Source: a virus. Taken from it: a stretch of 28,610 nt of DNA. Below the pieces are notes generated by a model, which was given only the letters and a program-made list of their open reading frames with translations, did not search any database and was not told the origin of the DNA. The stretch covers positions 1 to 28,610 of the IMG/VR virus record IMGVR_UViG_3300038470_000039. One strand, written 5' to 3'. Each line of letters begins with the position of its first letter. The stretch's first letter is position 1. Of the stretch, positions 1 through 27,495 are shown in pieces. The translations under genes and the position numbers were made by a program.

Positions 1-393
1 CTGGCCCGCACCCGGTTGGCGAAGTCCGTGCACGACGCCGGGTGGGGCCTGTTCCTCACTATGCTGGAGGAGAAGGCCACCCGATACGGAAGGACCTTCG
101 CGAAGGTCGACCGGTGGTTCCCGTCGTCGCAGCTCTGCTCGGCGTGCGGGATCAAGGACGGCCCGAAACCGCTGTCCGTCCGCACGTGGACATGCCCCGA
201 GTGCGGGACCGTCCATGACCGGGACCTCAACGCGGCACGGAACATCCTCCTCGAAGGACGCAAGACGGCCGCCGGACGGGCGGCTCTGCCTGTGGAGGGA
301 GCGGAAGACCTGGCCTCGGTCAGGCGGCACCCGACGAAGCAGGAACCCACCGGAGCGCCGCATGACGCGGCGCAGGAGGAATCCCCGGCCTGA
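1..393 (+). CDS. tnpB: TnpB RNA-guided nuclease, C-terminal part (5'-truncated by window)
   Basis: TnpB is the omega-RNA-guided DNA endonuclease of IS200/IS605 elements and a relative of Cas12. The frame is open from base 1, so only about the last 130 residues are present and the true start lies upstream of the window. Visible hallmarks are a zinc ribbon with two Cys pairs (CSACG, then CPECG about 24 residues later) and, directly after it, the RuvC-III motif [10 protein letters not shown], which supplies a catalytic Asp. The tail after this motif is polar and looks disordered, as usual for the family. The stop codon TGA lies in the loop of the right-end hairpin. No frameshift is visible, so the nuclease could be active; its N-terminal RuvC motifs cannot be checked here. 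Confidence 0.93.
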
Positions 394-432
394 AGGCCGG
401 GGAGGACGTCAAAGTCTTGGCGAGTCGATTCC
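250..432 (+). ncRNA. Predicted omega-RNA (TnpB guide RNA), approximate limits
   Basis: In characterised TnpB systems the guide RNA is processed from the 3' end of the tnpB transcript. It covers the right end and continues about 16-20 nt into flanking DNA as the guide. By analogy the scaffold would cover roughly 250-412, and the guide would begin at about 413 (AGTCTTGGCGAGTC...), which is phage tail-gene sequence. The start is arbitrary and nothing in the sequence marks the 5' end. This is an inference from family behaviour plus the visible right end. Confidence 0.4.
383..402 (+). repeat. Right-end hairpin of the IS element
   Basis: CCCCGGCC, a TGAA loop and GGCCGGGG form a perfect 8-bp stem just before GAGGACGTCAA. 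Subterminal hairpins like this are recognised as single-stranded DNA by the Y1 transposase in IS200/IS605 elements, and they form part of the omega-RNA scaffold. The loop contains the tnpB stop codon. The hairpin also lies just downstream of the minus-strand tail gene and could terminate transcription leaving the phage operon. Confidence 0.8.
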
Positions 433-2550
433 GTACCGGCGCCTGGTGCCGTCGACCTTGACGCGGCCCAACAGGGACCGGGACCCGCCGTCCAGGGAGA
501 GGGTCGCCGAGTTCGAACTGATCTCGTAGGCCACGCTCGTGCACCGGAACACTGAGATCCCGTCCGCCCCCACCGACTCCGTCAGGGACGTGGACCGGCC
601 GTGCGACAGCGGAGCATCACACACGATCACCGTGCAGCCTGGCTCGATCTCCCACGGCTCCACCATCCGGCCCGCCTGCCGGTCATAGATCGACGTCGAA
701 ACCACCACCCTGCCCGCGGTTTTCGCCTGCGCCGCCTGCCGCAGCGCGGACACGCCACGGACCCGGGCCAGCAGTGGCGACATCAGCCCCTCGCTGGTCA
801 GGTCGAGGGTCATGGTCCGCACGATCCCCGCCTCCGCCAGACCCCTGACGTTCGCCCGTACCTCAGCGACCCACGTGGTTTTGCTGGACCCGAACGTTGA
901 CCCGATATACCGGACCAGGCACCGGTTCGCGACGTCGTTCCCGCCGCCACTGAGCTCAACATCCCCAGCACCGGCAGGGATCACGTACCGGGCCGGCGCA
1001 TCCCACCGGCCCACGGAAAACCTCGGCAGCCCGGACGGGCCCGGCGCGCCAACAGCCCACCACACGTCAGGCGCGTACGTGCCGATGAAGTCAAGGACCT
1101 CGCGGGCCGACACCCCGTCCCACCACGCCGCATGAGTGATCAGCGTCGACCACCTGATCCCCGACTGGGCCTGGTTCGGGTCATACTCGACGACGCTGTT
1201 CAATCCGCGGCCCATCAGGTCATGCAGCACTTCACGGGCCGTTATCGCCGGGATGGCGGATGCAACCTGACCGGCATAGCTGTACCGCTTATGGATCACC
1301 GTGAGGTTGGACCAGTAGACCGTCTCGTCCTGCGCTGTGGTGACGTCAGCCCCGGTCCGCTGCCACGCCAAAAAGAGGTTCTGTGACCAGCGGACCGCCG
1401 CCGGCCACGCCCCCACGGATGCGCGGGCATCAAAGTTCACCTGATCCGGCTGCCAGGCATGCCGCCAGGACGGACCCCACTCGATGGGATTCCTGATCGT
1501 CGGATCAGCGGCAGACACCAAGTTCAAAAACCCGCTATCGGTGCGAGTGGTACGGACTGATCCGAGTACCCGCTCGATCTCTCCGCCGGGCGCGTACACC
1601 CACGTTGAATGGTCGTTCTGTTTGAAGCTTGTTCCTTCGCTGAATCCCTCCTGAATGAACCACGGCGAAACCGTCGCTGAAGGGTCATTCGGGTGGGCTA
1701 CAAACCGGACGACCGACGGAACAAGAGGATCGAGTGGCGTTACACGGAACGAGACAGACCCGCCCCCACGCAGATCCCACTCGGCTGTGGTCGTGTCCTC
1801 CTCCGCCGCGAACCCTAGGGCACCACCGCCCGTCACTTCGAGCCGGTCCGGCAACCGGGATGCCTCATAGTGGGCAGTCACCCTGGCTGCGGACAGTTCC
1901 CCCGAGTAGAGGGCCAGGTCCCAGATGCGGCCGTCTATCTGTGCGGTTCCGTCGAACCTGCGCCCGATCCACGCAGTGGAGGAGACGCCGGTCATGGTGC
2001 CGCGGGCCGCGAACACGGAACTCAAGAGGACGCGCGTCCCGTTGAAGAAAATGCTCATGTCGCCGGAAACATCGTTGCATGTGCCGACGACATGCAGGAT
2101 TTGGCCAGTCGGGGGAAGCGTGGTGGCGTGAACGACACGATATGCGCTGCCGGTCCACCAACCGATCCCTAAACGTCCTTGGGCTGAACTGTTCAGATTA
2201 AACCCCATGATCATCGGAATGGGGTTGGTGGAAGTTGTTCCGTCGTGACCGAACAACCACGGTCGACTACTGGAGGACGTCGACGGGATCGTGTCGAACG
2301 TGACCAACGCTTCGATGGTCTGCGGACGCCACGCGGAGGCCCCCGTGACCGACGCACCACCCCCGGCGAAGTCCGCCCCCGTGCCTGGCCCTGGACGGTT
2401 CGCCGCGACTGACCCGGGCGTGACGCTGCCGGTGATGGTCGCGGTGACCGACGCGACATCCTCCGCGAAAGTCGTGCCGCTGGCCTCCGAGAACCTCCAC
2501 CTCGCCAGCGGGGTGTCGGCGTCCTGCGCTGTGCTGTAGGCAGTCGCCAT
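409..2550 (-). CDS. Minor tail protein with N-terminal LamG-like lectin domain; 3' end formed by IS insertion
   Basis: The 713-residue product starts at the ATG (2550) that overlaps the previous stop as TGATG. Residues about 10-235 read as a LamG/concanavalin-A-like beta-sandwich, with an ARWRFSE start, hydrophobic strands, and the closing pattern DLALYSGELSAARVTAHYEA common in actinophage tail proteins. The rest resembles a baseplate-hub/Tal-type region: a long beta-rich part with WWAVGAPG and a late ECG-like barrel segment. The likely role is adhesion to the host cell wall at the tail tip. The last codons read AGA CTT TGA. The TGA (411-409) lies inside the adjoining IS right end, so the native C-terminus is probably lost or altered by a few or more residues. 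The segment at about 1480-2260, covering the LamG part, is less GC-rich than its neighbours. Confidence 0.8.
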   Translation of the reverse strand: MATAYSTAQDADTPLARWRFSEASGTTFAEDVASVTATITGSVTPGSVAANRPGPGTGADFAGGGASVTGASAWRPQTIEALVTFDTIPSTSSSSRPWLFGHDGTTSTNPIPMIMGFNLNSSAQGRLGIGWWTGSAYRVVHATTLPPTGQILHVVGTCNDVSGDMSIFFNGTRVLLSSVFAARGTMTGVSSTAWIGRRFDGTAQIDGRIWDLALYSGELSAARVTAHYEASRLPDRLEVTGGGALGFAAEEDTTTAEWDLRGGGSVSFRVTPLDPLVPSVVRFVAHPNDPSATVSPWFIQEGFSEGTSFKQNDHSTWVYAPGGEIERVLGSVRTTRTDSGFLNLVSAADPTIRNPIEWGPSWRHAWQPDQVNFDARASVGAWPAAVRWSQNLFLAWQRTGADVTTAQDETVYWSNLTVIHKRYSYAGQVASAIPAITAREVLHDLMGRGLNSVVEYDPNQAQSGIRWSTLITHAAWWDGVSAREVLDFIGTYAPDVWWAVGAPGPSGLPRFSVGRWDAPARYVIPAGAGDVELSGGGNDVANRCLVRYIGSTFGSSKTTWVAEVRANVRGLAEAGIVRTMTLDLTSEGLMSPLLARVRGVSALRQAAQAKTAGRVVVSTSIYDRQAGRMVEPWEIEPGCTVIVCDAPLSHGRSTSLTESVGADGISVFRCTSVAYEISSNSATLSLDGGSRSLLGRVKVDGTRRRYGIDSPRL

Positions 2551-2912
2551 CAGGCCGATGCCGTCGCCGCGAGATCCATGACGCCGGACGTGAGGACCAG
2601 CGTCCACGTGGTCCCGGACGTGGAGTCGACGTCACTGATCTGCTGGTAGCCGTACCAGTCGCTGCTGGACGCACCACCACGCAGACCGATGTACCTGGCG
2701 ACGAATCCGATCGGCAAGTCCGTGACCGTCACGGTGCCGGACTGCATTTTGGACCCGCCCGATGCGGCAGCCCACGTGATGGTCCCGCGGGTCGACCCAG
2801 ATGCCTCACTCGTGCCGGTCGATCCCGGGTTGGCGTCATGCGCCGAGATGTGGGTGATGAGCGTCCCGAGGGCGTCGAGCATCGCATTTTTCGCTGCGAC
2901 ACTGTATGGCAT
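2550..2912 (-). CDS. Small minor tail-associated protein
   Basis: This 120-residue protein has no domain I can name with certainty. It begins MPYSVAAKNAMLDALGTL and is rich in Ser, Thr and Gly, with alternating hydrophobic residues typical of beta-structured tail-tip proteins. Short proteins of this type often sit between minor tail genes in actinophages. The start is well supported: a perfect AGGAGG lies 7 bases before the ATG and overlaps the stop of the preceding gene. The stop overlaps the next start as TGATG, so it is cotranslated with its neighbours. The strong ribosome site suggests relatively high synthesis. Its role in the tail tip is inferred from position only. Confidence 0.75.
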   Translation of the reverse strand: MPYSVAAKNAMLDALGTLITHISAHDANPGSTGTSEASGSTRGTITWAAASGGSKMQSGTVTVTDLPIGFVARYIGLRGGASSSDWYGYQQISDVDSTSGTTWTLVLTSGVMDLAATASA

Positions 2913-2923
2913 TCTTTTACCTC

Positions 2924-4225
2924 CTAATCGAAACCTTGAGTGTCGTATGCGTCGAGCTCAACCGAGTCACCAGATCCGCCAGCCGCGGCTATCCCCCAAT
3001 ACGTTCCATTGGTTTCGAAGTATGGGCCACTGATGCCATCGAGATCAGCAGAGGCGATCAGCGTGGATGAGGCGACAACTGTAATCCCGAAATAAGTGGG
3101 CCAAAAATGCGATGAGATGTCGAGTGTCATCCCAACGGATATCGAAGCCGCGATGGAATGAATCTGAGTAGATGCTCCATCGTCGACGCGATGCAGCGAG
3201 ACTGCCGTCTCGGTTACTTCCCAGTAGTACCCGGAATACTGGAGCGAAGGCTCAGCCCAACACCACAGCCTTAACGCAGCACCACTGCTTGCCAGCCTGG
3301 CGGTCAGGGTTACACTCGCCACGGTCGAGATGCCGGAGATCCCATACACCGGGTCGATGATGATCCCCCTGGCATCTGCCGGGAGGTGGCGTCCGATCCC
3401 TCCAGTCGGCCCGACCGTCAACACTCCCGTCGTCGTGCCCGTCGCCGACGAACCTGGCGACGTGAACCCCGGCTCCCACCCGGACCAGAACGACCCGTCA
3501 TCCGGTGGACCAGCCAGCGGGATCGGCAGCATGTCCCCCAGTTCCCCGTCGGGGTCCTGGAGGTAGCCGAGGTATCCCGGATAGTCGGCAGGAGTCGGGT
3601 AGTCGATGCCCTGGAAGTCGATGCCGCCGAAGTCGCCGAGATTCCCACCGAAATCGCCGAGATCCCCGAGGTCGCCCAGGTCACCGATGTCGCCGAGGTC
3701 GTCACCGAAGTCGAGGCCGAGTTCGTCACCGAAGTCGAGGAGGTCGTCGAACCCGCCCAGGTCGCCGCCGAACCCGCCGTCCAGGTCGTAGTCGCCGCCC
3801 GGCGTCAGATCACCGGAGAACGACTGCTGGGCGGGGTCGAACTCCCCGACGGCCTGCCACGACTCCTGGGACCGGTCGATGAGGGCATAGACCTCACGCC
3901 ACCCGTCCATCTGTGACTGCTCGCCCTCGGCGGTGAGCCGGAACGTGGTCACGCCCGGCTCCGCTGACAGGCCAGGGTCGGTGAGCCGCCCATGCCACAC
4001 CCGGGCCCCGGTCCTGCCGTCGACGACGTCGACCGTCGCGAACGTGTCCAGGGCGTCCGGTACGGCCGTCCCCGCTGGGAACGTGAGGGTGCACGACAGT
4101 GTCTTGTGCCCACCAGGGGCGGTCTTCTCGAACCGCAGGTCGGCTGGCGGCGGGATCGTGAGCGCCTCACCGCCACGGGGCCCCACGAGCCGGACCAGGA
4201 GACAGTCACGCGGGTCAGCGGACAT
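2924..4225 (-). CDS. Minor tail protein with Asp/Gly-repeat linker and C-terminal beta domain
   Basis: The protein has 433 residues; its start ATG overlaps the Dit stop as TGATG. Residues 1-120 resemble the N-terminal beta domains of tail-tip hub proteins (PRGGEALTI, GRTGARVWHGRLTD, TTFRLTAEGE). Residues about 138-235 are a low-complexity acidic linker of GDLG/GDFG units. Residues about 260-433 look like a lectin-type beta-sandwich (VTLTARLASSG, RLWCWAE, DLDGISGPYF). The likely role is a tail-tip/hub adaptor carrying a carbohydrate-binding module. DNA for the C-terminal domain (about 2924-3330) is visibly more AT-rich than the rest, which suggests that this module was acquired separately. It is followed by a small gene with a strong ribosome site. 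Confidence 0.75.
   Translation of the reverse strand: MSADPRDCLLVRLVGPRGGEALTIPPPADLRFEKTAPGGHKTLSCTLTFPAGTAVPDALDTFATVDVVDGRTGARVWHGRLTDPGLSAEPGVTTFRLTAEGEQSQMDGWREVYALIDRSQESWQAVGEFDPAQQSFSGDLTPGGDYDLDGGFGGDLGGFDDLLDFGDELGLDFGDDLGDIGDLGDLGDLGDFGGNLGDFGGIDFQGIDYPTPADYPGYLGYLQDPDGELGDMLPIPLAGPPDDGSFWSGWEPGFTSPGSSATGTTTGVLTVGPTGGIGRHLPADARGIIIDPVYGISGISTVASVTLTARLASSGAALRLWCWAEPSLQYSGYYWEVTETAVSLHRVDDGASTQIHSIAASISVGMTLDISSHFWPTYFGITVVASSTLIASADLDGISGPYFETNGTYWGIAAAGGSGDSVELDAYDTQGFD
3523..3814 (-). repeat. Asp/Gly repeat tract inside the minor tail gene
   Basis: The coding DNA contains short imperfect tandem units encoding GDLG, GDFG and GDIG, most regular at about 3640-3720. The protein segment is acidic, lacks Lys and Arg, and has aromatic or Leu residues at regular spacing. 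It separates the N-terminal hub-like domain from the C-terminal beta domain. Confidence 0.8.
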
Positions 4226-5646
4226 CAGGCCAACCACCCGTACCGGGGCCAGTAGGACCCGGACCAGGTCAGTGACGCCGTGATCGGCCGGGCCACCGTC
4301 AACCCCAGCCCGGCCACGATGTACAGCCGGTTGTCGCCTGGCCGCAGGCGGGGGACGCGGCCGATGAACGACAGGCCAGTCGCACCCACGGCGCTAGGCG
4401 AAACGCCGGTGAACGGATCCGCCGAGAAGATCCGTGGCTGCTGGTCCCACCCGTCCAGTGCCAGCACCCCGGACCCGGCGGCCTGCGTCACCTCCAGCGA
4501 CCCGCAGTCCTCATCCGCCGGAACCAGCGCGACCCAGTCGACGACGAACGCGCCAGCACCGGCCTGGGCGCGGACGACAGCAACCGACACCGACGGCGCC
4601 GACGCCGCCAGCGGGGTCTCCGGCGCGGACAGGTACGGGGGCTGTGCGACCGGGACCTGCACGAGACCCATGTCGATGACCCGCGTATCCGACCCACCCG
4701 CTGTAAACGGCTCCACCAGCCGGCACGGCCCGGCCTGCGCCACGAGCGTGAATGGCTGCCCGCCGGCATCGGCCTCGCGGGCGCATCGGACCAGGAGCCG
4801 GTACGTTCCTGGCGCCTCAACCCCGGCCAGGCTCGGGAACGTCACGGTTACCGTCCATGGGCCACTGCCGGACGTGCTGTAGGTGGCCCGCAGCCCTGAC
4901 CCGCCGGAGAACGCAGAGTCCCCGGTGAACGAGTTGATCGATGGCGGGGTGGTGCCTTCCGCGGTCGACCCTGACTCGGCCTGCGCAGCGAGCCCGGTCA
5001 GTGACGACGGGACACCCCGGCGACGGATCGTGACCATGATCCGGTCGAGTTCGCCGCGGACGTCGGCGTCCGATGACCGCAGCACCAGGGGTGTCAGGGA
5101 GTCCCCGGCGACGTCGTCGATGTCCCACACCCAGGGCGTCCCGGACGCGGGGTCCTGGGTGATGGTGGCCGGGCCGACATCGACGCGGGCACCGATCGCG
5201 TACGGCTCGGTCTGGACGGTGATCGACCCGGTGACGATCCGGGTCGGCTGCCCCGCCCCAGCGACATTGGACGACAGGCGCGGCACGGTCGGCGCGCACC
5301 GCAGCCACACCGGGGTACTCCCCCCATGCCGCTGCAACCGCAAGATGAACCGGCTGCGGCAGAGCTGCTGCAGGCGTTGTGCGAGAACAGCAGCGGCATC
5401 CGCTGTCGCCGCGACCATCACCACCGGGACCGTCACCTGCCGTGCCGACAGATCCACCGGCGCCCCACCGGCCGGCGACGGGACCCACAGGAACCGCTCG
5501 TCACCAGCCCGAGCAGCCATCTCCACCGCGGCGAGCTCCAGGTCGTCGCGTCGCCCGACCCGTACCCCGCCCGCCGCCGAGTTGAGGTCGAGCAGCACGC
5601 TCCCTCCGCTGCCGACCTTGTCGACGATCTGCACTGTCGCGGGCAT
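4225..5646 (-). CDS. Distal tail (Dit)-like protein
   Basis: The protein has 473 residues. I chose the ATG at 5646 because it overlaps the tape-measure stop as TGATG. Residues 1-155 have the character of the siphovirus Dit/tail-component N-terminal domain: LDLNSAAGGVRVGRRDD, alternating strands, and a conserved-looking region ending GSITVQTEPYAIG. The position directly after the tape measure is the canonical Dit position. Dit forms the hexameric ring joining the tail tube to the tip. The remaining 300 or so residues (FTGDSAFSGGSG, TYRLLVRCARE, FVVDWVALVPADE) look like jelly-roll, carbohydrate-binding-type insertions, making this an 'evolved' Dit that may contact the host surface. The product is longer than classical Dit proteins (about 250 residues). 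Confidence 0.82.
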   Translation of the reverse strand: MPATVQIVDKVGSGGSVLLDLNSAAGGVRVGRRDDLELAAVEMAARAGDERFLWVPSPAGGAPVDLSARQVTVPVVMVAATADAAAVLAQRLQQLCRSRFILRLQRHGGSTPVWLRCAPTVPRLSSNVAGAGQPTRIVTGSITVQTEPYAIGARVDVGPATITQDPASGTPWVWDIDDVAGDSLTPLVLRSSDADVRGELDRIMVTIRRRGVPSSLTGLAAQAESGSTAEGTTPPSINSFTGDSAFSGGSGLRATYSTSGSGPWTVTVTFPSLAGVEAPGTYRLLVRCAREADAGGQPFTLVAQAGPCRLVEPFTAGGSDTRVIDMGLVQVPVAQPPYLSAPETPLAASAPSVSVAVVRAQAGAGAFVVDWVALVPADEDCGSLEVTQAAGSGVLALDGWDQQPRIFSADPFTGVSPSAVGATGLSFIGRVPRLRPGDNRLYIVAGLGLTVARPITASLTWSGSYWPRYGWLA

Positions 5647-8600
5647 CAGGCCCACCCCCTGCCGTAGGCCTGGTCGAGTGAGCCGACGAGCCGCCCCGAG
5701 TCGAGCCGGACGTTGCCGCCCGCCCTGACGGCGGTGATGAGCTCCCGGAGTAGCCCGGTGAGTTCGGCGTGGCGGGTGTCGCTGCCGCCGTCGTCGAGGC
5801 CGAGGCGCCTCCGGGTGCGTGGGTCGTCGAGGGGGATGACGGCCTCGTCTCGCCCGGCTTCGGCGACCTGGGCGAGGGTGCCGCCGGGTTTGGCTTGGAC
5901 GATGCCGCCCTGGGCGAGCGGTGTGATCCGCCCGAAGTTGACGCTCCCCCCGCCGAAGATCGTCTTACCCCCGACGGTCAGCGGCGGGATGCTGATGTTG
6001 ATCCGGTTCCACAAGCCAATGATCGAGTTCGCCACCTGCTTGAACGCCGTCACCAGCGGCGTCCACAACGTCCGCGCAATCCCAGAGATCCGCGCCGGGA
6101 GACCCCCGAACCCCGTCATCAACCGGCCGAGGACCGTCGTCGTGTTGGTCACCGCCGACGACGCCCCGGACACCACCGACGCGAACAGCCTGCCGCCGAC
6201 CGACGCGATGCGCGCCGGCATCCCACTGACATAGGTCACGATCCCCTGCAGCCGGGTCGACGTCGACGTCACCGCGGTCCCCGCGCTGGTGGTCAGCGAC
6301 GCGAACGCCGACCCAGCGACGCCTGCCACGCGGCCCGGCAACCCGGACACCCAGGTCGTGATGCCGCCGAGCCTGGTCGTCACCTCCGTGGCGGCGGAAC
6401 CAGCAGTGCTGGTCAGGGATGACCACACCGTCCCAGCGATGGCCCCGACTCGACCGGGCAGGCCGGACACCCAGGTCACGATGCCTTCCAAGGCCCCGGT
6501 CGCGGACATGACCGCACCACTGGCTGACGTCGCGATCGGCGCCCAGATGCCAGCCGCCAGCCCGGCGACCCTCCCCGGCAGCCCAGAGATCCACGTGACG
6601 ATGCCACCCAGAGCACCCGTCACTGTCGTCACCGCGGTTCCGGCGGAAGACGTGAGCGACGCCCACGCCGACCCGGCAAGTGATGCGACCTGGCCGGGGA
6701 GTCCCTGCAGCCACGTCAGGATGCCGCCGAGGCGCTCACGCGCACCATCAGCGGCTCTGCCTGCCGCCTCCCGGACTTCGCCGAACAGGTCGCCGCCGAG
6801 TGCAGCGACGCGCCCCGGGATTCCCTGGACGGCCGTGACGACACCATCAAGGCGCTGCCGCGCGCCGTCGACCGCCCGGCCCGCCGAGTCGAGCAGCGGC
6901 CCGAACAGGTCGCCTGCGGCCGATGCGATACGTCCCGGCAGCGAGGCCACGAGGGCAGGGATCTCGCCGAGCTTCCCGACGATCGCCGCAGCGATCTGAC
7001 CGGCGACCTCACCAATGCGCCCGATGAGGGAACCGAACCCGCCCAGCAGCCCGAGAAGCAGATCGACGCCGACTTCAGCCATGACCGTTGACGGCGAGTT
7101 GATCCCGAAGAAGTCCTTGATGCCGTTGAGGATCGCGCTTCCAATACCCCTCACCCATTGCGCAACCTTTGCGCCATAGTCAACACCAAGCAACCCGTCG
7201 ACAATGCCACCGGCAGCGTCCGCGAAACTCCCAATGCCGCCCGTCACATCCCCCCTGAATAGCTTATAAAGACCACCGACAACGTTGACCAGACTCGAAA
7301 AGAGCTTTATCGTTCTGGGTAGACTATTAAGGAGTTCTGTGATGCTTGGGATGGCATTGATAAATGCCTTTCCGAGGCCCGGGAGTGAGTCCGCGATGCG
7401 TGAGAAGGAGTCCGCAAACTTTGGTCCGTTCTCAACTCCCTTATCCAGCATTTTTCCGAGCCCGACAGCTATCTTGTCGATGACCTTCGCCAGGGCCGGC
7501 GACAGGGCGGCGGACACTTTCACGCCAGACTCGATTAGCTTTGGTAGCAGCGGAGCAAGGGCGGCTACGATCTTGACAAGCCCATTCATTGACTTCTCTG
7601 CGTCACCTGAGCGCGCCAAGCCCTCGAACGTCTTCCCAAGGGAGTTGACGAGGTCAGTCAGGACGCCCTTCAGTGGAGCAAGCCCCTTCAGGGATGCGGT
7701 AGCGAACTCAAGGAACGGCTTCGCCAGGCGACCAACGATCGGAATCAGGTCACCCAGAGCCGTCCCGAGGGTCTTCGCGAATTCACCGAACGGCTTCTCC
7801 GCATCCCGCATGATCGGCTTCAGGCGTTCGAGGCCGGACTGAATCCCGGGCAAGAAGTTCGCCTGACCGGCATCCCGCAACCGCTTGAGCGGCCCGTTAA
7901 TGAAGTCGTTCATGAACTTCGCGAATGCCTGCCCCTGTGGGGTCAGGTTCTTCATCGCTTCCGCGACCTTGTCGATCCCGCTCGTCGACGCCTGCGGATT
8001 CTTCACTTCTGCGAGCCGCAACTGCGCGTCGCGGATCCGCTGCAACGACAAGGCGACGTCTTCGTTCGCCTTGACGATGTTCCGCTGCGCGTCGGCGAAT
8101 GCCTGCTGCGCGTCCTTCACGCGCTGCGCGGCCTGCGCCACGCCATCCTGGGCATCCCGGACCCGCTGGTTCGCGTCAACGACGCCCTGCTGCGCGTCCT
8201 TCACGCGCTGCGCGGCGTCAACGACACCCTGCTGCGCATCCGTGATCCGCTGCTGGCTGTCGGCTACGCCCTGGTTGGCGTCCTTGACCCGCTGCGCTGC
8301 ATCCACCACGCCCTGCTGGGCATCCACGATCCGCTGCTGGGAATCAGCCACCTGCTGGTTCGCGTCCGCAACCCGCTGATTCGCATCGATCACGCCCTGC
8401 TGGGCGTCCCGTACCCGCTGGGCCGCGTCGGCCGCACCACGCTGAGCGTCGGCGATCCGCTGCTGGGAATCGGCGACCCGGCCCTGCGACTGCACCAGCC
8501 GCTCCTGTGCGGCCCGTACCCCGTCGCTGCCTTCGACACCCTTGGCGTCCGCCTCAGCCCTGGTCTGCGCCAGGTCGTCCGCCTGCTCCTTCAGGGAGAC

Positions 8601-10529
8601 GACCCGCTGCTTGGCCTCCCGCACCGCGAGCTCGGCGCGGGCCTTCTGCAGGGCGTCCGCCCGGTCGTCGGCGAGGACCTCCCGCAGCCGCTTCTCCGCT
8701 TCCGCGACGGATAGGGCGGCGTCTTCCTGCCGCAGGGCCATGTCGGCCGTGGCCAGCTTGAGATCTTCGAGCTGCTCCTGGGCGTCGCGCCTCGCGTCGT
8801 TGACGGCCTCCTGCGCGGCCCGCTCGTCGGCGAGGGACTGCCGGTAGTCGGCCTCCGCCGCCGAGATCGCCCTCAGCGCGGCCTGATAGTCCTGCTGCGC
8901 TGCGGCGACAGCCCGAGTCGACGCCTCCACATCCCGCTGAGCGGCACCCACGGCACGGGCCGCCGCCTCATGGTCACGCTGCGCCTGAGCGACCGCCCGC
9001 ACCGCGGCCTGCTGGTCCCGCTGGGCGGCAGCCACCGACCGGACCGCCGCCTCATACCCACGCTGCGCATCCGACACGGCGCGGACCGCTGCCTGCTGGT
9101 CCCGCTGGGCCTGCGACACGGCCCGGACAGCACCCTCAGCGTCCCGCTGAGCCGCCGCCACCGCACGGGTCGCGGCCTGCACACCCTTCTGCGCCTCGCC
9201 GATGGCACGCTGCGCGGACGCCGCATCCCTGCCCGCCCGGTCGACGCCCTCCAGGCTGTCCCGGTAGTCCCGCTGCGCCGCCGCAACGGCGGCTGTCGCG
9301 GACCGCACCGCGGACGCCGAAACCTTCACCGCGCTACCGGTCGCGGTCGACTTCTCCCCCAGCGCCTTGACCGCGTCACCAACCCCGGAGAACGCCGCCT
9401 TGACGACGCCGAGACCGACCGCCCCGACCGCGATCCCACCCACCGCCAGGCCGACACCCGCCAACGCCACCTCGGCAGCAGCAGCCCCAGCAGCGAGGAC
9501 ACCGAGCCCGACGACCACGGCGCCGATCGGGCCCGCCGCCGCACCGATCCCCGACCCGGCCGACCCGACCTGCCCCAGCGACGACGCCGCCCGCCCCGCG
9601 AGCCCCGGCAGTTCCCCGAGGGACTGGGCCAGGGAGGACGCGCCACCGCCCCGGCCGAGGTTGTTAGCCTGCTGCTCCAGTTCGGCGAGCTTGCGCCGGG
9701 CGAGGGTCGTCTCGGCGTCGACGCGGATCTGTGCGGTCCCGGAGTCCAGGCGCCGCTTCTCCGCCTCAAGGTCGGCCAGCTTCCGTTCAGCTGCGCCCGT
9801 GGCGGCGGCCACCTTGACCTCTACCTGCTCGTCGAGGGCGCGCCGCTGGTCCTGCAGCCGCCGCAGCTTGGCCTCGGCGGCGGCGGTTTCGGCGTCGGCC
9901 CGGACCTTGACGGCGTCGTCGGTCAGGTCGTCGCGCTGCCGCTGCAACTTGGCGAGCTTCGCCTCCGCGGCAGCGATCTCGGCCTCAACGACGACCCGCT
10001 CCCCATCGCCGAGGTCTTCGAGCTTTCCCCGCAATTGGGTGAGCTTCTGCTCAGCCCTAGCGATGTCCAGGTCAACCTGGGGGCGGCGTTCCTGCGCGAC
10101 CCGTCCAATGTCCTGCCGGACCGTCGCCAGCTTGCGTTGCGCGGCGGTGATGTCGGCGTCGACCTGGACCCGCTTGTCCCGGGCCGCCTTCTCGATGTCG
10201 TCCCGGACCGTCGCGAGCTTCCGCTGAGCCGCCGTGATGTCGGCGTCGATGCTGATCCGCCGGTTGGAGAGCTTGCGGGACTCCTCCTCCAGCCGAGCGA
10301 TCTGCTCCCTGGCTTTCGCGATGTCGACCTGCAGTTTCGGTGGCGCCGACGCGATCGCGGCACCGGCAGCCCGCGCGAAGTTCTGCCCGAAGTCCCGCCC
10401 GGCCCGGGGGGCTTCAGCGCGCACGGCGGAACCCGCCTGCGACCGGATGTCCGACCGCAGGTCATCACCGCTGGCCCGGATCCGCACAACGGCGGACGCC
10501 AACACGTTCTCAGCCACAGAAGGCCCCAC
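5646..10529 (-). CDS. Tail tape measure protein
   Basis: The protein has 1627 residues and is the largest in the window. Tape measure proteins set tail length, chaperone tube assembly and enter the host envelope during DNA injection. Residues 60-290 and 400-850 are long Ala/Gln/Arg/Asp-rich coiled coils. Residues about 328-380 are hydrophobic and Gly/Ala-rich, with potential membrane segments. Residues about 860-1190 are mixed alpha-helical. Residues 1197-1516 contain eight 40-residue repeats, and the C-terminus has the usual GGIVQAKPGG...AVIPLDDPRTRRRLGL pattern. At about 1.5 angstrom per residue the length predicts a tail near 240 nm. The start overlaps the end of the chaperone T frame by 20 bases; the stop overlaps the next start as TGATG. 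Codons for residues about 876-1130 are notably more AT-rich than the flanks. Confidence 0.95.
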   Translation of the reverse strand: MGPSVAENVLASAVVRIRASGDDLRSDIRSQAGSAVRAEAPRAGRDFGQNFARAAGAAIASAPPKLQVDIAKAREQIARLEEESRKLSNRRISIDADITAAQRKLATVRDDIEKAARDKRVQVDADITAAQRKLATVRQDIGRVAQERRPQVDLDIARAEQKLTQLRGKLEDLGDGERVVVEAEIAAAEAKLAKLQRQRDDLTDDAVKVRADAETAAAEAKLRRLQDQRRALDEQVEVKVAAATGAAERKLADLEAEKRRLDSGTAQIRVDAETTLARRKLAELEQQANNLGRGGGASSLAQSLGELPGLAGRAASSLGQVGSAGSGIGAAAGPIGAVVVGLGVLAAGAAAAEVALAGVGLAVGGIAVGAVGLGVVKAAFSGVGDAVKALGEKSTATGSAVKVSASAVRSATAAVAAAQRDYRDSLEGVDRAGRDAASAQRAIGEAQKGVQAATRAVAAAQRDAEGAVRAVSQAQRDQQAAVRAVSDAQRGYEAAVRSVAAAQRDQQAAVRAVAQAQRDHEAAARAVGAAQRDVEASTRAVAAAQQDYQAALRAISAAEADYRQSLADERAAQEAVNDARRDAQEQLEDLKLATADMALRQEDAALSVAEAEKRLREVLADDRADALQKARAELAVREAKQRVVSLKEQADDLAQTRAEADAKGVEGSDGVRAAQERLVQSQGRVADSQQRIADAQRGAADAAQRVRDAQQGVIDANQRVADANQQVADSQQRIVDAQQGVVDAAQRVKDANQGVADSQQRITDAQQGVVDAAQRVKDAQQGVVDANQRVRDAQDGVAQAAQRVKDAQQAFADAQRNIVKANEDVALSLQRIRDAQLRLAEVKNPQASTSGIDKVAEAMKNLTPQGQAFAKFMNDFINGPLKRLRDAGQANFLPGIQSGLERLKPIMRDAEKPFGEFAKTLGTALGDLIPIVGRLAKPFLEFATASLKGLAPLKGVLTDLVNSLGKTFEGLARSGDAEKSMNGLVKIVAALAPLLPKLIESGVKVSAALSPALAKVIDKIAVGLGKMLDKGVENGPKFADSFSRIADSLPGLGKAFINAIPSITELLNSLPRTIKLFSSLVNVVGGLYKLFRGDVTGGIGSFADAAGGIVDGLLGVDYGAKVAQWVRGIGSAILNGIKDFFGINSPSTVMAEVGVDLLLGLLGGFGSLIGRIGEVAGQIAAAIVGKLGEIPALVASLPGRIASAAGDLFGPLLDSAGRAVDGARQRLDGVVTAVQGIPGRVAALGGDLFGEVREAAGRAADGARERLGGILTWLQGLPGQVASLAGSAWASLTSSAGTAVTTVTGALGGIVTWISGLPGRVAGLAAGIWAPIATSASGAVMSATGALEGIVTWVSGLPGRVGAIAGTVWSSLTSTAGSAATEVTTRLGGITTWVSGLPGRVAGVAGSAFASLTTSAGTAVTSTSTRLQGIVTYVSGMPARIASVGGRLFASVVSGASSAVTNTTTVLGRLMTGFGGLPARISGIARTLWTPLVTAFKQVANSIIGLWNRINISIPPLTVGGKTIFGGGSVNFGRITPLAQGGIVQAKPGGTLAQVAEAGRDEAVIPLDDPRTRRRLGLDDGGSDTRHAELTGLLRELITAVRAGGNVRLDSGRLVGSLDQAYGRGWA
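5982..6941 (-). repeat. Eight tandem 120-bp (40-residue) repeats in the tape measure gene
   Basis: The motif [LIM]PG/AR or LPGQ begins at residues 1197, 1237, 1277, 1317, 1357, 1397, 1437 and 1477, an exact 40-residue period with no slippage. The consensus of each unit is LPGRVAxxAG, an aromatic/Trp-containing stretch, SxAGxAVT, then LxGIVTWVSG. The first two units are more charged (GARQRL, GARERL) and the later ones are Ser/Thr-rich. Confidence 0.9.
8084..8462 (-). repeat. Heptad (21-bp) coiled-coil repeat tract in the tape measure gene
   Basis: Residues about 690-816 consist of 18 successive seven-residue units such as QRVKDAQ and QGVVDAN with near-perfect register. The DNA shows matching 21/42-bp near-repeats (variants of 'tgctgcgcgtccttcacgcg'). 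They encode an uninterrupted coiled coil. Confidence 0.85.
8873..9164 (-). repeat. 42-bp (14-residue) repeat tract in the tape measure gene
   Basis: Residues about 456-553 are built from units of 14 residues of the form AVxxAQRDxxAAVR, seven in a row. These are two-heptad coiled-coil units distinct in sequence from the 21-bp tract downstream. Confidence 0.8.
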
Positions 10530-14437: not shown

Positions 14438-16753
14438 TCAGGCGGGGGCGATGGTCGTGACCGTCCCCGAGCTGCCGCGGAACTTCAGGGCCCCGGCCTC
14501 GACGTAGAGCACGCCGCCGCCGGTCGGGTTTGTGGTTGGGGCGGTGGCTGCGTTGGCGATCGAGACGACACCGGCGCCCCCACCAAGGCCGGCACCAGCA
14601 CCGATCAGCACACTGTGGTTGGCGGTGCCCAGTGCGATCGCGTTGTTCGTGGTCGTGGTCGCGCCGTTGTTGCTGGAGTCGGTTCCGATGGCCACTGAAC
14701 CGCTGCCGCCAGCCTTGGCGTTGTAGCCGATCGCTACGGCGTTATTCGCCGCTGCGGCCTGACCACCGATAGCAGTCCCCCGACTTGTGTCACCCGAGTA
14801 GCACCCAGTCGAGTGGCCAACGAACGTGTTCAGCATCCCCGTGACGGATGCGTTTGACGCTGACCCATTCGCGAAATACCCGGCGCTGTCACCAATAGCG
14901 ACATTCTTTGTTCCGGTCGTGAGAGAAAGCAGCACCCCGTGCCCGACGCCGACCGTCTGTGTTGCCGTGGTGACAGCCGGGCACGCCGATGCACCGATGG
15001 CGGTGTTGTTGCTCGCCGTTGTCTGAGCCTGCAGGGCATCCTTTCCGACCGCGGTGTTGTCTACCCCAGTGGTCAGGTTCTGCAGGGCGGTTCCACCGAC
15101 GGCGGTGTTGTTCGCCCCGGTCGTAAGCTTCGAAAGTGCCTGGTGCCCAACCCCGGTGACACGCTGCCCTGTGGTCAGCGCGGCGCCAGCTTGATAACCA
15201 ATCGCAACAGCGTCGGATGCCGTGGTAACTGACCCACCCGCGGATTTGCCGAGTAGCACAGCGCTGTTCCGCGGGTTGTTGGTCACCAGGCCGCCGAAAA
15301 GCTGCGTCTCGGGACCGATTACAGCTCCTGGGGATGCGGCGCCCTCGAAGTCGGGGGCCACCAGGACCATATTGGTGCACCCGTAGGAACCGCCGGTGTC
15401 ACGGTAGTTGGTCTGACCGTTCGCCGAAGCCGGGCCCTGGACGTTGCACTGCGGGCGCAGCATAAGCACCAGGTTGAGATCAAGAAACACATACCCGGCC
15501 GCTGTCCCTGCATTGCCTAGCTGAACGTAGGGATGGCTGAAAACGTAGTTGCCGTACCCGTAGTGAGGGTTCGAGTCATTGATGAAGCAGAAACCGCCGC
15601 CACCCCAGGACCACCACCGGGAGATGTTCCCGAGGATGGCGTTGATGGCGTAGAAGGCGTAGTGGTTTCCGTCATGCCCGTAGACCCTGACATTGTCGAC
15701 GATGAAATCGTTAAGCCCAGCGTCATGCCCTCCGAGCCCACCGTAGGTTTGGGTCGGAACGGCATAGATTCCGTGACCCGTGTTGATGTTGACGATCCCT
15801 GAGCCGAACGTGATGCCGAGATCGCGGAGGTCGACCGAGAGCGCCGAGCCGGTGATCTCGATGACGTTCGTGGCCGCCGTGTCCTGACGGAGGACAGTCC
15901 CACGCATGTACGGAGAGGAAACGGAATCCGTGTTCCCGCCGGCAGTGAACGACTTATGTTCGGAAGCGATCGTCTGACCGGTCATCGTCATGTGCTTTGT
16001 GATGCTGACCGCAGAGCTGATGACGTAGGTGCCCGTGCGCAGGAGCAGCCACCCACCGGACGGAGTCGCGTCGATGGCCGCCTGGAGGGCTGCCGTGTCG
16101 GTAGATGCGATCCCGGTGGGCGCGGGGGCGATGACGTCGGCCTGAGCGAAAGCGGCAGACAGGGCGCTTGTGGGGGTGTCCGTGGACACCACGGACCAGT
16201 TGCTCACCCCATCGGAGACGAAGGTCAACGCGACCTCCGGCATGGCGACCACACGCGCCGACGCCGAAGCGTTGATCGTGTCCCCCGCGGCCGGGGACAC
16301 CGACGCCGTGTAGGTCGTCGACGTGTCCGTCCGCCGCACACCCACCACGCCACCCGCACCAGCCACCGACGCGGCAGGGAGAGTCCGGGCCAGCGCCGCC
16401 GACCCGCAGTTCAGGCGGGCAAGCTGACCCACGGTGAGGGTGCCGGTCGTCGCGGTCGAGGCGGTGCGATCGGGGACCAGGGTCCTACCGGCGAGCTCGT
16501 TCCCGGTGACCGTGTCGGCCCGGACCCCGGACGTCTCGTAGGTGATGGCGCCGGTACCGCCGTCGATCGCGGTGACCCACGCCGTCACGAGGCCCTGGAC
16601 TGCGCCGTCCCACGACCGCTTCGGGTTGATCGTGGACCGCTGCCCACCGTTGACGAAGGTGACGCGGGTCGTCCCGGTGTTGATGATGCTGATGGAGCCC
16701 GAGCCGCCGCCGTCGAGGGTGGTCGGGCTGGTCGTGAGGTTGGCCGTGGCCAC
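14438..16753 (-). CDS. Spike/fibre-like protein beside the capsid gene: beta-helix plus trimeric-adhesin-type repeats
   Basis: The protein has 771 residues; GTG start with GAGGAG 8 bases upstream. Residues 1-75 form a compact beta domain (SGSISIINTGTTRVTF, QRSTINP) that looks like a small capsid-decoration or anchoring domain. Residues about 80-200 are beta-rich linker. Residues about 205-490 have the pectate-lyase/tailspike pattern (STDTAALQAAIDATPSGGWLLL) of a right-handed beta-helix. Residues about 495-720 contain YadA-like head repeats (NNTAVGGTAL, DNTAVGKDAL, NNTAIGASAC), which form left-handed trimeric rolls. No C-terminal self-cleaving chaperone is seen. It may be a capsid-borne fibre or depolymerase rather than a tail protein, since it lies directly after the capsid gene. 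It is bracketed by strong hairpins, and its middle is less GC-rich than its neighbours. Confidence 0.8.
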   Translation of the reverse strand: MATANLTTSPTTLDGGGSGSISIINTGTTRVTFVNGGQRSTINPKRSWDGAVQGLVTAWVTAIDGGTGAITYETSGVRADTVTGNELAGRTLVPDRTASTATTGTLTVGQLARLNCGSAALARTLPAASVAGAGGVVGVRRTDTSTTYTASVSPAAGDTINASASARVVAMPEVALTFVSDGVSNWSVVSTDTPTSALSAAFAQADVIAPAPTGIASTDTAALQAAIDATPSGGWLLLRTGTYVISSAVSITKHMTMTGQTIASEHKSFTAGGNTDSVSSPYMRGTVLRQDTAATNVIEITGSALSVDLRDLGITFGSGIVNINTGHGIYAVPTQTYGGLGGHDAGLNDFIVDNVRVYGHDGNHYAFYAINAILGNISRWWSWGGGGFCFINDSNPHYGYGNYVFSHPYVQLGNAGTAAGYVFLDLNLVLMLRPQCNVQGPASANGQTNYRDTGGSYGCTNMVLVAPDFEGAASPGAVIGPETQLFGGLVTNNPRNSAVLLGKSAGGSVTTASDAVAIGYQAGAALTTGQRVTGVGHQALSKLTTGANNTAVGGTALQNLTTGVDNTAVGKDALQAQTTASNNTAIGASACPAVTTATQTVGVGHGVLLSLTTGTKNVAIGDSAGYFANGSASNASVTGMLNTFVGHSTGCYSGDTSRGTAIGGQAAAANNAVAIGYNAKAGGSGSVAIGTDSSNNGATTTTNNAIALGTANHSVLIGAGAGLGGGAGVVSIANAATAPTTNPTGGGVLYVEAGALKFRGSSGTVTTIAPA

Positions 16754-21937: not shown

Positions 21938-23500
21938 TCAGGCGTACGACGCGGTCTGTGCACCGACCTTCACGCGCTTCGGTGGCTTGATGAACCGTTC
22001 GACCCCGGCACAGACCGCGTCGATGATGTCGTCGTTCGCCGCCCGCGGGTAGCCGTACATCTCACCTTCGAGGGCATGGAACCGTCCGGCGTGCAGCACG
22101 AGCGGGGCGGGGCGCTGGTACTGGTCGAGCAGCCACGTGAAGCGGACGTCCTTACCTTCGTCGCTCCACGAGGTGATGACGCGGGCCGGGAGCTTCTCGA
22201 ACACCTCGGGCCACAGGTCGCCGCCCTGGTTCACTTCGACGATCACGGCGTGGATGCGGTGCGGCCACGCGCGGAGGATCTTCGCCAGGTGGGCGGCGAG
22301 GCGACGGCCGGTGAGCTGCACCCCCTCAGCGTGCTCGACGACGCATCTGCCTTCGGTCGGGGAGAATGCGACCACTGCGACGCCGGTCCGGTCGCTGGTC
22401 TTCTTCGCGGTGGTGGCCGGGTCGACGAGCAGCAGGCGGCGGGTGAGGGTGTCGAGGGTGCCGTAGGTGATGTCGCCTTCCTGCCAGTAGTCGCCGTCGT
22501 GGCCGCCGGGCTGGTTGTCGTAGTTCTTCGCGTACGACTTGGTGTGCCGGATGGACTGCAGGAATTCCAGCGTCCAGCGTGCTGGCCACAGGCTGGCCTC
22601 GCTGCCGTCGGGGCGGGTGACGATGGCGGGGTAGTAGTGGACGCGGATCTTCTCGTCGCGTGGCCACTCGGGTGGATCGGTGTCGGTGATCTGGCGGACG
22701 AGGTCATGGACGATGCTTCCGGCCATGGTGGTGGTGCCGGTGAACATGACGACGGCGGACAAGGACATGGGGAAGATGGCGGTGGTGACGGTGTCGAGGC
22801 GCTTCGCCTTCTGGTAGAGGCTGTACTGGGCTTCCGCGGGCTCAATGTCATCGAACAAGATCAGGTCGGGCCTGCGGTTCTCGATCTTCGCGCCGAGGGC
22901 CGCCGCGTCGGCACCCTTCGTGACGAACGCAGCCCCCGACCTCGCGATGTACACGTCCTGACGGTCCGCGACCGTCACACCACCCGGCCGAGTCGCCGGA
23001 GTGCACAGTTCGAGATAGTCGGTCCGCAGCAGCTCGTTCGTGTCGAGCTCACGCTTGAAGCTCATGAGGTGCTGCTGCGCCTGTGGCCCGGAGTCCGCGA
23101 ACGCGATCACGAAGTTACGGTGACCATGAGCTAACGCCCACATAGGCAAGATCAGATAGGCGAGGGTGGACTTCCCGGTCCCGCGAGGAGCTACCCATGC
23201 CGACCGGCACTCCTGCGGACCGTGAGCCACCTCGAAGTTCCGCGCCTCGGAGAACAGGTCGAGGTGGAACCGCGACATCGTGATCTCGTTACCGGTGTCC
23301 TCCGACCGCAGATGCTCCGGGAAGTACACCAGCGCGAACGCCAAAGGATCATGCCTGGTGAGGGAACGCCGTCCCTTCTCCGTCTTCAGCAGATCCGCAG
23401 CAGTCAGATCTGGCCGGATCTCCCGCAGCTCCGCCACGCGCCGGGCCAGGTAGTCGACCCGGTCGAACGACTCCGGCTCGACACCATCCAGGTACCCCAC
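21938..23500 (-). CDS. terL: Terminase large subunit (ATPase-nuclease)
   Basis: The protein has 520 residues; GTG start 3 bases after the preceding stop. It is the packaging motor that cuts concatemers and pumps DNA through the portal. Motifs visible are Walker A APRGTGKST (residues 104-112), Walker B LILFDDIEP (213-221, with Asp217, Asp218 and Glu220) and the coupling motif VMFTGTTT (251-258). The RNase-H-like nuclease acids are probably Asp360 in LLLVDPATT, Glu422 in VIVEVNQGG and the Asp cluster ANDDIIDAV (490, 491, 494). All key residues are present and the reading frame is intact, so the enzyme looks functional. A small terminase lies two genes upstream. Packaging type (cos or headful) cannot be told from the sequence here. 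Confidence 0.96.
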   Translation of the reverse strand: MGYLDGVEPESFDRVDYLARRVAELREIRPDLTAADLLKTEKGRRSLTRHDPLAFALVYFPEHLRSEDTGNEITMSRFHLDLFSEARNFEVAHGPQECRSAWVAPRGTGKSTLAYLILPMWALAHGHRNFVIAFADSGPQAQQHLMSFKRELDTNELLRTDYLELCTPATRPGGVTVADRQDVYIARSGAAFVTKGADAAALGAKIENRRPDLILFDDIEPAEAQYSLYQKAKRLDTVTTAIFPMSLSAVVMFTGTTTMAGSIVHDLVRQITDTDPPEWPRDEKIRVHYYPAIVTRPDGSEASLWPARWTLEFLQSIRHTKSYAKNYDNQPGGHDGDYWQEGDITYGTLDTLTRRLLLVDPATTAKKTSDRTGVAVVAFSPTEGRCVVEHAEGVQLTGRRLAAHLAKILRAWPHRIHAVIVEVNQGGDLWPEVFEKLPARVITSWSDEGKDVRFTWLLDQYQRPAPLVLHAGRFHALEGEMYGYPRAANDDIIDAVCAGVERFIKPPKRVKVGAQTASYA

Positions 23501-26132: not shown

Positions 26133-26554
26133 CAGGTCACATCTCGTTTCGGGGTCGTGACGCCTTCGATGGCTGGCCAGCACTTCACCCGGACCTGGAT
26201 CGTCCCCCAGTCGCGCATGAGGTCCCCGTCGATGGTGACGCCGAGGTGCTCGTCGGCGTCCACGACGTGCCGCTCCTGGGTGATAGTGCGGCGCATCCCC
26301 TGCCACATCGCGGCGAGGTCCCGAACCAGGTCAAGGGGGTGCACTGGTCGCTCGTGGCCGTATGCGGTCTGTGCACCGTAGGTCTTGGCGGTCATGGTCT
26401 GCTGCTCGAAGTCGAGGGAGGTCGGGGACGTCCAGTCGGCTCCGGCCCAGTCGAGGGATGATGTCGGCGGCTTCACATAGGTGATCTCCCGGGATCGGGT
26501 GGCGAACCGGGTGATCGAGCGCGGCGGGTCGGCGAAGGTGGCGGCGAGGTCCAT
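26129..26554 (-). CDS. Hypothetical protein (141 aa)
   Basis: ATG at 26554 is preferred because AGGAGG lies about 5 bases upstream and it shares TGATG with the previous stop; GTG 26557 is one codon earlier. The protein has a polar N-terminus, a segment RPVHPLDLVRDLAAMWQGMRRTI and an acidic strand region VVDADEHLGVTIDGDLMRDWGTIQVRV. I recognise no family. Its codon use matches neighbouring phage genes. Confidence 0.7.
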   Translation of the reverse strand: MDLAATFADPPRSITRFATRSREITYVKPPTSSLDWAGADWTSPTSLDFEQQTMTAKTYGAQTAYGHERPVHPLDLVRDLAAMWQGMRRTITQERHVVDADEHLGVTIDGDLMRDWGTIQVRVKCWPAIEGVTTPKRDVTW

Positions 26555-27495
26555 CACGCCTCCTGGTGGGCGGCGAGGTAGGCCTCGCGGGTGGTGCGGC
26601 CGATGGCGCCGCGGGCGGAGACGGGGACGTTGTTGGCGTGGGCCCAGGCGCGGATGGCGCCGCTGCTCATGTCGAGGGGCGCGGGCTTGTCGGTCGCGTC
26701 CTGCCCGGGTGGGCAGTGGGGTCCCCCGCAGATGCTGCCGCCCTCACAGGGGGCCCGGTGCTCCGGGGGGAGGGCGATGGTCTCTGCCTCGGGGTCGCGG
26801 TCGATGGCGACGCTGGCGGCGGCTTCGCGGGCGAGGAGGAGGTCGCCGGTGGTGATGGCAGTGGGCTCGTCGTCCCAGTCGATCTCGTCGTTGTCCCTGG
26901 CAGTCTCGGCTGCGCGGCGGGCGAGGGTCTGCCCCACTTCGAGGGGGACGCTGGCGCGGGCTGCGGCGGCGTCGGGGTCGCCGAGGGAGGACCGTTCGAT
27001 GAGGTCGTGGATGGTGGCCTTCACGTCCGCGTCGGCGTCGTAGAGGGCCTCCGGCTCGGCGTCGCCGATGGCGTCTGGCAGGGTGCCGGCAGGTGCTGGT
27101 GCAACGGCGATGGTGGTGATGTCGGCGGGGTAGGCGCGGAGGACGTCGTCCGCCTTGATGCCGTTCTCGCCGTCCCAGGTCCAGTAGCCATCGGTGTCGA
27201 GGGTGGCGGCGATGACGATGAGGGCGTCGTCGCCGGGCTGCGGGTCGAACGGGACGGGCGTGGCGACCTTGGTCTTCATGTCGGCGAGTTGGGCGGCGGC
27301 GTCGGCTCGGGCTGCGACGAGGGCACCCTGGGCGGCCTTCTGTGCGTCCCATCCGGGCTTGAGTTCGGCGTAGATCTCGGCGGCTTCGTCGTGGCGTGCC
27401 TGCTGGATGAGGGCGTGGACTCGTTCGGCCATGTCGACGGTGCCGCCGTCTCCGAGTTGGGCGAGGATCGGGAGCAGGTGCTCCGGTGCTGGCAT
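26554..27495 (-). CDS. Protein with C-terminal Lsr2-type DNA-binding domain (313 aa)
   Basis: ATG at 27495 with GCGGAG upstream. Residues about 278-310 (SGAIRAWAHANNVPVSARGAIGRTTREAYLAAHQ in outline) match the C-terminal DNA-binding domain of Lsr2, the actinobacterial xenogeneic silencer that grips AT-rich minor grooves through an RGR-like loop; here the loop reads ARGAIGR. The Lsr2 N-terminal dimerisation domain is absent. Instead residues 1-80 are helical, the middle (90-240) is acidic with a YWTWDGENG segment, and residues 250-261 have CEGGSICGGPHC, a possible metal site. Roles could be countering host Lsr2 silencing, nucleoid contact or regulating the late genes. It is the first gene of the small-gene run. 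Confidence 0.75.
   Translation of the reverse strand: MPAPEHLLPILAQLGDGGTVDMAERVHALIQQARHDEAAEIYAELKPGWDAQKAAQGALVAARADAAAQLADMKTKVATPVPFDPQPGDDALIVIAATLDTDGYWTWDGENGIKADDVLRAYPADITTIAVAPAPAGTLPDAIGDAEPEALYDADADVKATIHDLIERSSLGDPDAAAARASVPLEVGQTLARRAAETARDNDEIDWDDEPTAITTGDLLLAREAAASVAIDRDPEAETIALPPEHRAPCEGGSICGGPHCPPGQDATDKPAPLDMSSGAIRAWAHANNVPVSARGAIGRTTREAYLAAHQEA

Follow-up and report, generated by a model that had tools for sequence, protein, structure and literature searches.

A phage-borne IS200/IS605-type right end with part of tnpB, a predicted omega-RNA and a predicted guide at the 3' end of a tail gene

The right end of an IS element in a phage record

The window analysed here is the entire record IMGVR_UViG_3300038470_000039, a stretch of 28,610 bases with no sequence to the left of base 1. 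Its first 412 bases are the right-end portion of an IS200/IS605-type element, and a phage tail gene adjoins it on the opposite strand:

1-393, plus strand: 3' part of tnpB, the last 130 codons, open at the record start (profile and structure matches)
263-412, plus strand: predicted omega-RNA (reRNA) scaffold, overlapping the 3' end of tnpB (covarying helices common to 34 relatives)
378-412, plus strand: IS right end, with a GAAT guide, the hairpin CCCCGGCC/GGCCGGGG, GGACG and the cleavage site TCAA at 409-412 (sequence and alignments of relatives)
413-432, plus strand: predicted guide AGTCTTGGCGAGTCGATTCC, antisense to the last codons of the tail gene (boundary position and analogy with ISDra2)
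409-2607, minus strand: phage tail protein gene, 732 aa (open reading frame; Laminin_G_3 and MinS1 homology)

The frame at 1-393 (plus strand) matches the Cas12f1-like_TNB domain at 1.1e-25, the NCBI models NF040570 guided_TnpB and IS200_TnpB, and ISDra2 TnpB (PDB 8bf8) at 9.9e-27, where it aligns to residues 289-376. The C-terminal nuclease domain of TnpB is present, with all four zinc-ribbon cysteines (codons 46, 49, 65 and 68 of the visible part) and the RuvC-III Asp (codon 75, bases 223-225), which corresponds by alignment to D361 of ISDra2. The visible part begins 11 residues past the RuvC-II Glu (E278 in the ISDra2 alignment). Since the record starts within tnpB, RuvC-I and RuvC-II, the left end, the target motif (TAM) and any tnpA fall outside it. 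The RuvC-I Asp is kept in 132 of 133 tnpB relatives and the RuvC-II Glu in 128 of 133; because of this near-complete conservation, the window copy likely derives from an active parent tnpB. The copy itself could be truncated or catalytically dead, since its N-terminal two thirds lie outside the record, and its catalytic competence is presumed here. A placement of the fragment in a TnpB tree was rejected because short fragments clustered together.

The right end has the form GAATCCCCGGCC-TGA-AGGCCGGGGAGGACGTCAA (written in full, GAATCCCCGGCCTGAAGGCCGGGGAGGACGTCAA), with 412 as its last base. It contains a subterminal palindrome and a TCAA-type end, and the tnpB stop codon TGA sits in the loop of the hairpin. 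In a blastn search of plasmids, 14 of the 20 matches listed extend to query base 412 or 413 and no further, Rhodococcus and Streptomyces plasmids among them, and the same is true of one phage match, to Saccharomonospora phage PIS 136. About 55 relatives on viral and bacterial contigs have this right end in common and pass immediately into unrelated flanks, and two IS copies that are 98% identical (L055 and L056) lie at different sites with an identical right boundary. Because relatives with unrelated flanks cease to match at this point, the alignments place the boundary of the element exactly at 412|413. The first-pass annotation had described an IS right end adjoining the tail gene, a boundary at about 412, and an intact zinc ribbon and RuvC-III Asp in the visible part of tnpB; all of these hold, and the boundary proves to be exact.

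Further features of the phage lie elsewhere in the window:

3627-3740: Gly-Asp-Leu-rich tandem repeat in a 437-aa tail protein
8102-9186: tandem repeats of 42/84 bases in the tape-measure gene
14438-16753, minus strand: 771-aa virion protein between the head and tail genes (PHROG matches)
26554-27495, minus strand: protein with a C-terminal Lsr2-like DNA-binding domain

Across 409-5655 and 21938-23500, the terminase is 42-45% identical to those of Streptomyces and Microbacterium phages, but for the tail-tip genes hardly any relatives turned up in the collections searched; the tail module of this phage is a rare one. In the 771-aa virion protein, the repetitive C-terminal part has matches to PHROGs for tail spike and virion structural proteins, and a weak match to YadA-head repeats. 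The Lsr2-like domain is of an actinobacterial nucleoid-protein type and is consistent with an actinobacterial host.

The predicted omega-RNA and the target motif

The region 263-412 was aligned with its counterparts from 34 relatives, giving 35 sequences. In their consensus structure, 94.3% of cells are paired; shuffled alignments reach 75.7% and slid partners 36-44%, and none of the shuffles equals the real alignment. Two-sided changes number 170, compared with 52 in the shuffles, and 21 of the 31 pairs have changed on both sides. At 16-19/201-204, a covarying helix brings the CGUC adjacent to TCAA together with a GACG of the coding region. On its own, the window strand also folds better than its shuffles (z = -3.0), and an Rfam search of the region returned no family at gathering score. 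Because the window sequence and its 34 relatives form one covarying structure, the prediction of an omega-RNA scaffold that ends at the element boundary is well supported; an omega-RNA at the right end had been proposed earlier, and covariation now backs it. Its expression would be expected by analogy with ISDra2 (PMC8612924).

The relatives fall into two classes according to the motif to the left of their left end, TGAC or CTAC. For the window copy, the two available signals point in opposite directions. The C-terminus of its TnpB is nearest to those of TGAC elements, and a naive-Bayes call from the C-terminus favours TGAC, although in leave-one-out over half of the CTAC class is assigned wrongly. 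Its RNA is of a short form, in which about 6 nt are missing from the 5' part, and this form is otherwise seen only with CTAC (11 of 11 elements with a readable left end, compared with 0 of 28 TGAC elements). The short-form relatives are L008, L025, L060, L273, L275, L278, L280, L282, L283, L284 and L286. Because the protein and RNA signals conflict, neither TAM is assigned to the window copy.

The tail gene and the predicted guide

The tail protein has a concanavalin-like N-terminal domain (Laminin_G_3), and its C-terminal part is homologous to UIU47058 of Microcystis phage MinS1. The stop codon of the gene, TGA (409-411), is read from TCAA and lies inside the IS, and the last codon, CTT, takes one base from the IS. 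After the last shared block, the MinS1 protein ends at 21 aa and the window protein at 27 aa. A protein from an actinobacterial genome (L234) ends in ...ARTRR, compared with ...GTRRRYGIDSPRL in the window, and the tail homologue L233 has a long additional C-terminal part. Since distant homologues terminate at nearly this position, the tail protein is probably complete or a few residues short at most. Any disruption of the gene that the first-pass annotation implied finds no support here: the C-terminus falls almost where the MinS1 and L234 proteins end.

These comparisons involve homologues that are only 27-33% identical. Viral contigs, a one-genome-per-species set, phages and plasmids yielded no close homologue of the tail gene, and searches by peptide patterns gave no relatives in viral and genome contigs. 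With tblastn, phages yielded MinS1 and one marginal match, and plasmids none; among 395 genomes from the class of Nocardia there were weak matches, one of them useful for the C-terminus. The records that share the terminase do not have the C-terminal part of the tail gene.

In the empty site, the junction codon would be CTG (Leu) with either target motif. With CTAC, the next codon would be TAG, that is, exactly a stop, and the insertion would lie on the tail gene's own stop codon; with TGAC, it would be TCA, and the native tail frame would read on. Long upstream open reading frames in several TGAC-class relatives (L154, L155, L157, L160 and L216) have the TGA of the target motif in frame as a stop. 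A family-wide preference for insertion at stop codons is hinted at, but it is not statistically clear.

ISDra2 sets the precedent for the length of the guide, for the TAM and for the role; its guide consists of 16 nt of flanking DNA (PMC8612924). The corresponding guide of the window element would start at 413, in agreement with the earlier proposal of a guide of 16-20 nt of tail-gene DNA from about that base. The sequence at 413-432 is unique within the 28,610-base window. The exact 19-nt guide had no match in IMG/VR contigs, and an empty-site search with YKAC as TAM followed by 14 nt had none in viral contigs, so that by neither route was an empty site of related phages found there.

Element retention and competing explanations

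The window element shares with ISDra2 of Deinococcus radiodurans (IS200/IS605) the C-terminal domain of TnpB, the RuvC-III Asp, the zinc ribbon and the TCAA end, whereas the RNA scaffold sequence differs and the window element sits at a phage tail gene. The TAM of ISDra2 is TTGAT, in contrast to TGAC or CTAC in the relatives of the window element. IS608 likewise has a TCAA end and a GAAT right guide, the latter lying at the base of the right hairpin in the window. In ISDra2, the reRNA comprises the tnpB 3' end and the right end, with a guide from flanking DNA (PMC8612924), which is the arrangement predicted for the window. The IS608 target TTAC (PMC8612924) is resembled by that of the CTAC-class relatives, while the window's own motif lies outside the record. 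Among phages, an IS605-type element of Saccharomonospora phage PIS 136 (JX006077, L061) is 71% identical in DNA over 1-412 and has the same right end; it carries tnpA and has a CTAC target motif, but it occupies a different, unrelated phage site, and no tail gene adjoins its right end. TldR proteins, which are RNA-guided transcription factors that act on flagellin, are likewise TnpB-derived and phage-borne (PMC13418256). TldR is marked by lost RuvC catalytic residues and by a guide directed at a regulated promoter instead of the flank. In the window, the predicted guide is simply the flank of the insertion and the one catalytic Asp in view (RuvC-III) is intact, with RuvC-I and RuvC-II outside the record. 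Taken as a whole, the locus is probably best explained as an IS200/IS605 family element of the IS608/ISDra2-like, single-strand 'peel and paste' type with actinobacterial kin.

Single-strand transposition of IS200/IS605 elements leaves an empty donor site, and a guide taken from the insertion flank is the normal way in which such elements hold their place. The IS would have inserted into the phage genome in antisense orientation, at the 3' end of the tail gene or a few codons from it. TnpB with its guide would then recognise TAM plus guide only in element-free DNA, either the donor site once the element has left it or the genomes of sister phages that lack the element. Cutting at the empty site would favour copying the element back, with repair restoring it, and the IS-bearing copy would be spared because the TAM lies at the element's other end. 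With the insertion placed at the gene's end and a stop codon provided by the IS, the tail protein would be essentially unchanged. On the best reading, the window element adds an ordinary new member to a known family, and we infer that its guide serves element retention.

That the phage carries only a decayed or truncated right-end remnant with no functional nuclease is unlikely. Just 130 codons of tnpB are visible, and in one relative (L019) the tnpB frame is no longer than 143 aa, but the zinc-ribbon cysteines, the RuvC-III Asp, the right-end hairpin, TCAA and the RNA pairing are all intact in the visible part and free of signs of decay, and assemblies would usually break within repeated elements in this way. 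Another explanation is an assembly chimera, in which the IS end of a host replicon was joined to a phage contig: the contig edge lies within an element type that is often multi-copy, and the junction depends on one assembled record. This is quite improbable, as the junction coincides exactly with the biological end of the element at 412|413, and an isolated phage, PIS 136, carries an element of this type.

The first-pass annotation had suggested that the nuclease of a lysogen could cut related phages. TnpB of an infected cell would then act as a weapon against incoming, related phages that lack the IS, and both the origin of the guide in a phage structural gene and the demonstrated TnpB-driven loss of IS-free plasmids (PMC11870625) speak for it. 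However, the guide matches no other phage in the viral contigs, with or without a TAM, the collections searched hold no close homologue of the tail gene, and the genes scanned in this record, which is an incomplete fragment, included no recognisable integrase or repressor. Such a weapon is improbable, and the lysogen receives no support from the fragment. An even more distant prospect is that transcription running out of the IS yields an RNA that acts antisense to the 3' end of the tail mRNA. The genes tnpB and tail are convergent, on opposite strands, but the mature omega-RNA would be expected to overlap the tail gene by just 16-20 nt, and we give this explanation almost no weight.

Beyond retention within one genome, the guide may act at the level of the phage population. 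In this gene-drive version, TnpB would cut uninterrupted tail-gene ends during co-infection, and IS-bearing phages would replace sister or related genomes while the tail protein is kept whole. Its plausibility comes from gene-drive work on plasmids, in which TnpB drove the loss of IS-free plasmids (PMC11870625), and we consider that it has a small chance of being correct. What is gained here is another phage-borne TnpB element for which the boundary, the putative RNA scaffold and the predicted guide are defined. If TnpB does act as a drive, insertion at the end of a gene with a stop codon supplied by the IS would allow the element to spread in phages at little cost, and such spread would extend the plasmid result (PMC11870625) to phages.
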